DNA of 64,000 nt. It comes from Henriciella sp. Its GTDB lineage: Bacteria; Pseudomonadota; Alphaproteobacteria; Caulobacterales; Hyphomonadaceae. The position numbers and the translations under genes were made by a program. Within the stretch, counting starts at the first letter, position 1, and the number at the start of each line of letters is the position of its first letter. The notes beneath the pieces are model-generated. The model was not told the DNA's origin. It made no database searches and worked only from the letters and a program-made list of their open reading frames with translations. The stretch covers positions 225,648-289,647 of the forward strand of contig NZ_JAPYPG010000002.1 in assembly GCF_029937755.1 (NCBI RefSeq). Direction: 5' to 3'. Shown one piece after another: positions 8,361-10,816 of this stretch.

Positions 8361-9109
8361 GAGGCCTTCAGCTCCTCGAGGTAGCGATTATGCGTCAGGT
8401 CGACATGCAACGGCGTGACCGAAACGCGCCCTTCATAGATCGCGCGCAGATCGGTGCCCTCATCCGGCTTTGAAAGCCGCCCACGAAAGCCGATCCAGTA
8501 ATAATCATTGCCGCGAAGATCTTCGCGCCGTTCGGTGTGAATGATCTGTTCGTCGCGGAAGCCTTGCCGGGTCACTTCCACACCGGCGACATCCTGAGGC
8601 TCGCGGTCCGGAAAATTGATGTTCATGACGACATCATCGGGCCAGCCTTTCTCGATCAGCGGCTTTAGCACTTTCGCGCCCCACTGTTTCGATGTCTCCC
8701 AAGGCAACGATCCACGTTCGCGAAAGCTCTGCGCCTGGCTGAGGGCAACGGACGGAACACCGAGATGCATCCCGAACATGGCACCGGCAATCGTCCCGGA
8801 AAGGCTGGTGTCCTCGGCGATATTCTGCCCGCGATTGACACCCGACAGGATCAGGTCCGGCTTCTCGTCCATGAGGTCGTGGACGGCAAGAAGGACGCAA
8901 TCGGTCGGCGTGCCCATAACCGCCCAGCACTGCTCACGTACTTTTCGCGTACGCACCGGCTGGGTCAGCGTGATCGAGCGCGACTGGCCGGACTGTTCGA
9001 CCTCCGGTGCCGCGATCCAGATGTCATCAGAGAGCTCGCGCGCAATGCTTTCGAGGACGGAAAGCCCGGGCGCGTGAATGCCGTCATCATTGGTCAGGAG
9101 GATTCTCAT
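8348..9109 (-). CDS. surE: 5'/3'-nucleotidase SurE
   Basis: Protein of 253 residues with the unmistakable N-terminus [15 protein letters not shown]; its Asp-Asp pair and the later [18 protein letters not shown] segment form the divalent-metal site. It removes phosphate from nucleoside monophosphates (and possibly short polyphosphate) in the cytosol. The ATG overlaps the serS stop by 4 bases and its end overlaps pcm, so the three are translationally coupled. Length and motifs are standard. Confidence 0.95.
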
Positions 9110-10728
9110 CCGATCACCTCAAGCCCGCCCATATAGGGCTGCAGCACAGCCGGGACATCAATCGTGCCGTCTTCGCGCTGATAGTTCTCGAGGATCGCAA
9201 CCAGCGTACGCCCGACGGCCAGACCGGAACCGTTCAGTGTGTGGACGAACTCCGGCTTCGGTTTGGGGTTTTCCTCGGTCGGTGCCGGGCGCCAGCGGGC
9301 ATTCATGCGGCGGCCCTGGAAGTCCCCGCAATAGGAGCATGAGCTGATCTCGCGATAGGTGTCCTGGCTCGGTAGCCAGACTTCGAGGTCATAGGTCTTG
9401 CGCGCCCCTGCCCCCATATCGCCGGTACAGAGCAGCATGCGCCGATATGGCAGCTCGAGACGCTCAAGGATGGTCTCGGCGCAGCGCGTCATCCGCTCAA
9501 GCTCTTCCAGCCCCTCCACTTCGTCGCGCACGATGGAAACGAGCTCGACCTTGTTGAACTGGTGCAGACGGATCATGCCCTTCGTATCGCGGCCTGCGCT
9601 GCCGGCTTCGGAACGGAAGCACGGCGTGTGCGCGGTCAGGCGCCGCGGCAGGGTGTCGGCGTCGAGGATCGATTCGCGGACGGTATTGGTGAGCGCGACT
9701 TCAGCAGTCGGCGTCAACCAAAGTTTATCCGTCAGCTCACGCATGACCGAATCTTGATCGTGAGCAAGCTTATTTCGGGTCGATTTGATTTCCTGAAGCG
9801 CTTCCTCGGAATTGTAGTCGATATAGGCAGTTGCCGCCTTCTCCACGATCTGCCTGAATTGCTGGTTCAGCAATTTCATCTGCAACATGGATGAGTCCAT
9901 GTAATCTTCGATATGCACTCTATCCATTGCTGCGGCAATTGAGCGGCGATCAACCGTCTCATCGACGTTACGAAGACTTTCAAACAGGCTAATCAGATAA
10001 GTCAGCGCTCTGAGCCTAACGTTCCCGACTTGAACAATAGGCTTAATCCCAAAGATTCCCGAAAACAGATCCTCAGCAAACTTTGGCAACTGACCTGTCC
10101 CCACAAGCGCCTGATCCCGCACTAGGACAGGTGGGCTCGTCTCCTCATAGCCATGCTCGCCGGTCTGGACGTCCAGCATGTAGTTCGCCAGCGCGCGTTC
10201 GAGCCGTGACAGCTGGCCGCGCAGAAGCACGAAGCGTGAGCCGGACATTTTCGCCGCCGTCTCGAAATCCATCATGCCGAGGGCTTCGCCGAGGTCAGCA
10301 TGATCCTTCGGGGCAAAGCTCAGCGCCGTGGGCGTGCCGACCTTTTTCTGCTCGACATTGGCCTCTTCATCCTCACCTTCGGGCACATCGGCCAGCGGGA
10401 TGTTGGGGAGGCCGAGCAGGAGGTCGTCCAGCGCCTCGCGGGCCGCCGCTTCCTGCTCGCCGGCGGCTTCGATCGTGTCCTTGGCTTGCGAGACGACCGT
10501 ACGCAGGCGTTCGAACTCCGCCTCGTCGCCCTTGGCCTTGGCCTGGCCGACGAGCTTGGAGTTGGCATTGCGCGCGCTTTCAGCCTCCTGCTTGTCGGTG
10601 ACGGCTTTGCGGAGCGCACTGTCATGCGCAAGGATCTCGTCGACCTTTTCGCCCAGCCCCGGCTTGCGCCGGTTCCAGGCATTGCGGAAGACGTCTGGGT
10701 TTTCGCGGATCGCGCGGATGTCGAACAT
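9106..10728 (-). CDS. serS: seryl-tRNA synthetase with a large internal insertion
   Basis: Protein of 540 residues, against roughly 425-430 for the family. Residues 1-110 form the tRNA-binding coiled-coil arm. Class II core motifs are present: [11 protein letters not shown] (motif 1), [11 protein letters not shown] (serine-binding TxE), [22 protein letters not shown] (motif 2 loop) and [17 protein letters not shown] (motif 3). The extra length is one block, about residues 223-336, between EDLF and LWLTPTAEV, where usual enzymes have only 10-15 residues. The frame is open throughout, so an active enzyme with an added domain is likely. It sits between tatC and surE in a coupled operon. Confidence 0.95.
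9721..10062 (-). other. AT-rich in-frame insertion domain in serS, HEPN-like motif
   Basis: About 114 codons (SerRS residues 223-336). A hand count of bases 9781-10080 gives about 47% GC, against about 73% at 10381-10440 and 60% at 9661-9720, so the drop is confined to the insert. The predicted peptide is helix-rich, with few prolines or glycines. Near its end it contains [12 protein letters not shown], which fits the R-N-x3-H form of the HEPN RNase motif (R318, N319, H323). The size and the C-terminal place of the motif match a HEPN fold. No intein splicing residues are seen at the edges. The fold assignment is inference from one motif. Confidence 0.6.
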
Positions 10729-10816
10729 GTCGTCTCTCTGAATTCCGGAACAACGGTACGGGCACCCCTGTAGAGGAATTGGCCGCGAAGCGGAACCGGG
10801 CAGATGACGGCAAACC

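Follow-up and report, generated by a model that had tools for sequence, protein, structure and literature searches.

The extra block in a Henriciella seryl-tRNA synthetase as a probable allele of a hypervariable cassette

What is a block of 114 residues doing in the catalytic domain of the only seryl-tRNA synthetase (SerRS) of a bacterium? The question is raised by the 64-kb window of Henriciella DNA analysed here, whose serS gene (positions 9106–10728, minus strand; 540 amino acids) is the sole copy found in the genome. Residues 223–336 (9721–10062, minus strand) stand where most relatives without an insert have a hairpin of six residues, which bears out the excess of about 110 residues reported in the initial annotation of this DNA. 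That annotation took the block for a grafted HEPN RNase. Rather than a one-off nuclease graft, the block is probably one version of a piece that at this loop is exchanged, altered or missing in relatives. The sequence comparisons given below make it almost certain that a single hairpin in the catalytic domain of alphaproteobacterial SerRS, flanked by [13 protein letters not shown] and by the serine-binding TxE motif, is the site of a hypervariable in-frame cassette, and that the block is one of its alleles. The source genome of the window is designated G000; other G and L codes refer to other genomes and to serS loci.

The insert and the enzyme that carries it

The Henriciella enzyme combines an N-terminal tRNA-binding coiled coil with a class II core that has TxE and motifs 2 and 3, as expected of a bacterial-type SerRS. 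Its catalytic motifs are intact: TxE (PTAE, residues 340–343, positions 9700–9711, just after the cassette site), motif 2 (FRSEAG, residues 371–376, 9601–9618), REISS (residue 459) and motif 3 ([10 protein letters not shown], residues 499–508, 9205–9234), all encoded by the minus strand. Just before the cassette site, the GTGQLPKF segment (residues 210–217; 10078–10101, minus strand) occupies conserved alignment columns. The alignment with the Pseudomonas aeruginosa SerRS (6hdz) covers residues 34–223 and 334–540, its gap falling at the insert. Six residues separate ..EDLF from ..(Y/W)LIPTAE in 113 of the 187 rows read, and this is the commonest state in enzymes without an insert.

The GC content of the block is 0.47, as against 0.63 in the remainder of serS. 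In a 120-base profile, it is 0.46–0.48 within the block and 0.58–0.70 alongside, a drop that exceeds chance. Family PF00587 is found at three places in the genome (ThrRS, the SerRS under study and ProRS, as read from their translations), and the full-length SerRS matches the genome once. The gene belongs to an operon-like run, tat-serS-surE-pcm. The initial annotation was right in describing an in-frame, foreign-looking insertion, poorer in GC than its flanks, within an apparently functional and sole SerRS, and in setting pseudogenisation aside: the frame is open and the motifs are present.

Distribution and diversity of the inserts

Each species is represented by a single genome in the collections searched, and all comparisons are between species. 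In the survey of the family (105 genomes, 102 with a SerRS match, two of these only as a contig fragment that misses the site) an insert is present at the hairpin in 44 of the 100 evaluable genomes, seen as 43 split matches plus G002, which has 20 residues; the other 56 gave one unsplit match and were read in part, and short inserts may escape among them. One of the split matches is G486 (locus L089), a one-contig genome in which the N- and C-terminal halves of serS occupy different open frames around the insert, owing either to an assembly indel or to a broken gene. An even sample of the class gave an insert in at least 20 of 377 genomes with serS, after discounting six genomes whose multiple matches are not due to an insert at the site (G063, G128, G225, G309, G327, G383) and leaving out G091, G131 and G423. 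In a sample of the phylum (299 genomes, 282 with a match) an insert was found in 15 of the 86 genomes of this class. Among the best matches listed, no insert-type split at the site was seen in the 196 genomes of other classes, four of which gave only weak and probably partial matches; the single split found there is a contig end. The class is identified as Alphaproteobacteria because the named relatives with an insert, which include Henriciella, Hyphomonas, Hellea, Methylobacterium and Rhodoplanes, belong to it. ThrRS, the one control synthetase run, has the same core domain in the same genome and gave an unsplit match in 58 of the 60 genomes where it was found, the source genome included; in the remaining two the gene is spread over two contigs.

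Inserts of at least 20 residues were collected from 79 loci, one identical copy having been dropped; the set is enriched for genomes with split matches, hence its size is not a prevalence. Rows were excluded for a broken frame (L089), for failing the motif rule (L129, L177, L179 and G1011, the insert of the latter being read by eye) or for not being found by the script (L206, L207). Eight duplicate named records were dropped as well, L153 was kept out of the insert counts (same insert as L150), and L115, the same record as G020, was retained as a row without insert. The 79 inserts (20–120 residues) form 63 BLAST clusters, 54 of them singletons, from which the Chao1 estimator gives about 300 insert families. 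Their GC content is below that of the core in 75 of the 79, and in 52 of 71 it is below that of every core window of the same length. The extreme cases are L202, which is G222, and L218, which is G932, where an insert with 34% GC lies in a serS gene with 68–69% GC and the frame is open. The alternative outcome considered in the initial annotation, that close relatives carry the same block at normal host composition, held only as to place: relatives have a block at the same position, mostly of unrelated sequence and with GC below that of their own genes. This indicates a hypervariable site and not a single nuclease graft. The search elsewhere in the genomes covered the G000 insert family, and the three homologues found are all in other SerRS.

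The inserts nevertheless look like coding sequence. The GC content at the three codon positions of 71 inserts is 0.61/0.40/0.54, as in genes. No in-frame stop occurs in 4524 codons and G486 was the only split gene read that failed to give an open frame; the count of zero is partly by construction because the inserts were taken from open frames. Cysteine is nearly absent (4 of 4998 residues in the 79 inserts; 0.1% in 71 inserts as compared to 1.4% in the surrounding SerRS core). The dN/dS ratio could be computed for 5 of 16 pairs (0.03, 0.07, 0.52, 0.53 and 0.54), the other 11 being saturated at synonymous sites. Where it can be judged from these sequence pairs, selection keeps the sequence within an insert family.

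Turnover between close relatives

Sister species with nearly identical enzymes can differ completely at the hairpin. The cores of G463 and G464 are 97.0% identical and their inserts, of 36 and 94 residues, are unrelated; G462 and G452 (cores 97.7% identical) have 74 residues and no insert, respectively; G464 and G483 (cores 96.3% identical) have inserts of 94 and 92 residues at 25% identity. On a tree of core DNA from 76 family rows (42 with and 34 without an insert) presence or absence has changed at least 14 times, 11 of the changes being forced by strong branches. When insert families are treated as character states, the 34 states need 39 changes.

The DNA next to the insert carries a trace of this replacement. 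Disjoint close pairs, more distant ones being dropped, were compared within 60 bases upstream and 30 bases downstream of the insert and further out. The 20 pairs that differ in insert state have a near-flank divergence of 0.257 per base as against 0.130 further out, and it is higher near the insert in 19 of them. The ratio is twofold in these pairs and 1.35-fold in pairs that agree in insert state (P = 0.009). Such excess divergence beside differing alleles is a statistical signal of the kind that short recombination tracts carrying the cassette would leave, and the inserts are probably turned over by recombination through the conserved flanks. The flanks seem to travel with the cassette state. 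Among 29 Henriciella serS loci (L004–L019, L021, L023–L033, L037), 17 have TxE as ATSE together with (D/E)SF before the hairpin, and all 17 are free of an insert; the seven enzymes with an insert all have PTAE or PTSE, as do five without one.

What the variable hairpin may do

Great diversity, fast replacement, restriction to one of the classes sampled and constraint within a family fit a surface module whose advantage lies in being different. Tentatively, and as a serious possibility, we infer that the alleles are swappable surface modules at a tolerant loop, ranging from the bare hairpin of six residues to modules of 20–120 residues and often differing between sister species, and that their function is most likely to alter a surface bound by an antagonist. 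Charging of tRNA-Ser would be retained while the surface near the active site changes, because the loop is tolerant: insertion II of human cytosolic SerRS is near the active site and has a negligible role in aminoacylation (PMC10817482). That insertion (G254–N261) is at the same hairpin, human residues 263/264, directly after it, aligning with residue 334 here. The module would shield or alter a surface needed by an antagonist, for instance by a protein of a phage or by a delivered tRNase toxin, for which SerRS would serve as target or activator; rare, unfamiliar alleles would then be favoured. The Henriciella insert itself would be a helical bundle devoid of nuclease activity. By analogy with CysK and EF-Tu, cytosolic host proteins that activate tRNase toxins (PMC7690452), the simplest selective agent is most likely an antagonist that would bind SerRS at the hairpin. 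Many unrelated alleles at one locus and rapid replacement among close relatives, the marks of an antagonist-driven allele series, are both found here. A bolder version, possible if rather doubtful, makes SerRS a front line of conflict, its hairpin serving as a site of allelic recognition at which hundreds of modules are interchangeable and are kept diverse by phage or competitor proteins that seize the enzyme there.

Several results weigh against an antagonist-driven allele series. No antagonist of SerRS was found in the data or in the literature searched. The dN/dS ratio never exceeds 1 in the five computable pairs, 11 of the 16 being saturated, and a charge-hydropathy plot places 23 of the 79 inserts on its disordered side. 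One family of 51 residues has kept a GC content close to that of the host in several lineages (L133, L139, L150, G1051). This looks less like a race than like a domain that has settled, and the family may be a settled allele. Insert presence is clustered on the tree (14 changes as against 25.1 in shuffles, 0 of 500 shuffles being as low) and is thus partly inherited. The 11 pairs that agree in insert state also have raised divergence near the insert (0.184 against 0.136, higher in 10 of 11, P = 0.03), so that the neighbourhood is somewhat variable anyway. For the G000 insert family, BLAST places the G013 insert closer to that of G781, a genome of another bacterial family, than to that of G000. 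In an AU test on four taxa the core topology is not rejected (p = 0.67), and lateral exchange of this insert family is consequently not claimed; retention of old alleles while sisters were replaced is an equal reading. No match to the G000 insert family was found in viral contigs, and the five of the 79 inserts that were run against phage or plasmid records had no relative there (the G000 insert against both, three others against phages and one against plasmids).

The 51-residue family was recorded at loci L139, L150, L153, L215, L133 and L203, with a relative at 42% GC in G277, where the gene has 47%.

The alternative that survives best, though we consider it unlikely, is a tolerated coding expansion devoid of function, in which captured DNA is accepted at the hairpin and inserts are gained and lost through recombination and drift. 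It would account for the huge diversity of the inserts with no common motif, for their GC below that of the core and for those predicted to be disordered, and tolerance of this loop to insertion is known (PMC10817482). Difficult to reconcile with it are the dN/dS ratio, which is below 1 in every computable pair and as low as 0.03 and 0.07 in two of them, the near absence of cysteine and the gene-like codon periodicity. A functionless expansion also leaves the lack of insert-type splits in the 196 genomes of other classes to be explained, and the turnover among near-identical sisters is very fast for neutral changes.

The same purifying selection in some insert families could instead indicate a working domain specific to each lineage, each insert binding tRNA-Ser or a partner and tuning or localising SerRS. 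The 51-residue family, retained in several lineages mostly at host GC, is in line with this proposal, and insertions and extensions of eukaryotic SerRS have partner roles (PMC10817482). We judge it quite unlikely, however: sisters with 97% identity have an unrelated domain or none, which is hard to square with an integrated housekeeping role.

A guard, decoy or immunity role, in which the insert would be a bait for a protein of an invader or would serve, inside an essential gene, as an antitoxin or immunity domain, is very improbable. The size range, low GC and diversity of the inserts would resemble those of immunity genes, and the operon-like context of serS would ensure that the insert is made constantly. 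However, no Pfam, PHROG, PADLOC or NCBIfam family was supported across the 64 inserts searched (best E 0.0005, no family being matched by more than two members).

A HEPN RNase grafted into SerRS and cutting or handling tRNA, the reading of the initial annotation, is hardly credible. It found no support when examined with four profile libraries, with the homologous inserts, by motif counts in shuffled inserts, with two AlphaFold models and in two structure searches of the insert. The R-N-x3-H motif is present as described near the C-terminal end of the insert (R-N-K-L-A-H, residues 318–323; 9760–9777, minus strand), in a predicted helix, and it exceeds chance weakly, arising in 0.6% of shuffles of this insert. 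It is absent, however, from the three homologous inserts found (G013, G499, G781), and its occurrence in 1 of 71 inserts (0.2 expected, P = 0.18) is at chance level; the looser R-x4-6-H, present in the G000 insert and not conserved, occurs in 12 of 71 (13.1 expected). Matches to DUF4145, HEPN_Swt1 and CARF-HEPN (E 0.003–0.024) are below threshold, the Pfam profiles giving 16.6 bits for DUF4145 (curated cut-off 23.1) and 15.3 for HEPN_Swt1 (27.5). Structure prediction gave four helices, arranged as a bundle of low confidence (pLDDT 68). The two structure searches with this model returned no HEPN protein among the 50 matches listed for each, and none with E ≤ 0.001; at such low model confidence this lack is not evidence of absence. 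Other genomes have unrelated inserts at the same site, which also speaks against a graft of this kind.

Other kinds of element can be set aside. Inteins are in-frame insertions in essential enzymes near active sites, a type of position they have in common with the SerRS inserts. Their splice junctions have an N-terminal Cys, Ser or Ala, and a C-terminal Asn followed by Cys, Ser or Thr. The Henriciella insert starts with Ser but ends with ..TDKL followed by Trp, thus missing the splice-junction residues; the Pfam matches of the 64 inserts include no intein family and many inserts are shorter than a mini-intein. A group I or II intron finds no support in Rfam, whose sole match in 9100–10800 is SCARNA6 (13.2 bits against 68, E 0.43). 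Rickettsia palindromic elements are likewise in-frame coding insertions in essential genes, where palindromic sequences are repeated in many genes. The cassette differs in being at one site, in having unrelated sequences and in showing no direct or inverted repeats of at least 10 bases in 9640–10140, which speaks against a palindromic or repeat element.

Domain additions to tRNA synthetases are well known. As far as the literature was searched, we found no description of a cassette at a fixed site whose dozens of unrelated alleles are exchanged between nearly identical enzymes. Insertion II in human SerRS has eight residues and is described as a feature of higher eukaryotes, whereas the alphaproteobacterial inserts have 20–120 residues, exist in dozens of unrelated versions and are absent in many sisters. 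The cassette is like hypervariable loci under pressure from antagonists in its many unrelated alleles and rapid replacement between sisters, and like the permissive factors CysK and EF-Tu (PMC7690452) in that a cytosolic protein would be the possible helper of a toxin. It differs from both in that the locus is that of a housekeeping tRNA synthetase and the antagonist is only proposed.

Few enzymes are as conserved as the tRNA synthetases, and wholesale replacement of a part between enzymes otherwise 97% identical is unexpected. Turnover of one loop, seen in a single class of the sampled phylum, suggests that SerRS is acted on by a selective agent, for which a direct search is possible by swapping or removing the insert and following the effect on a phage, toxin or inhibitor. 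If the antagonist-driven reading is true, a hypervariable "identity" module is housed in the core translation machinery. A loop that naturally accepts more than 100 residues would also be useful for engineering.

The antisense translation of serS (for example L032:1501-2700:+) matches antisense frames in 93 of the 105 family genomes, many with few stops. These matches most likely mirror the conserved GC-rich sense codons.
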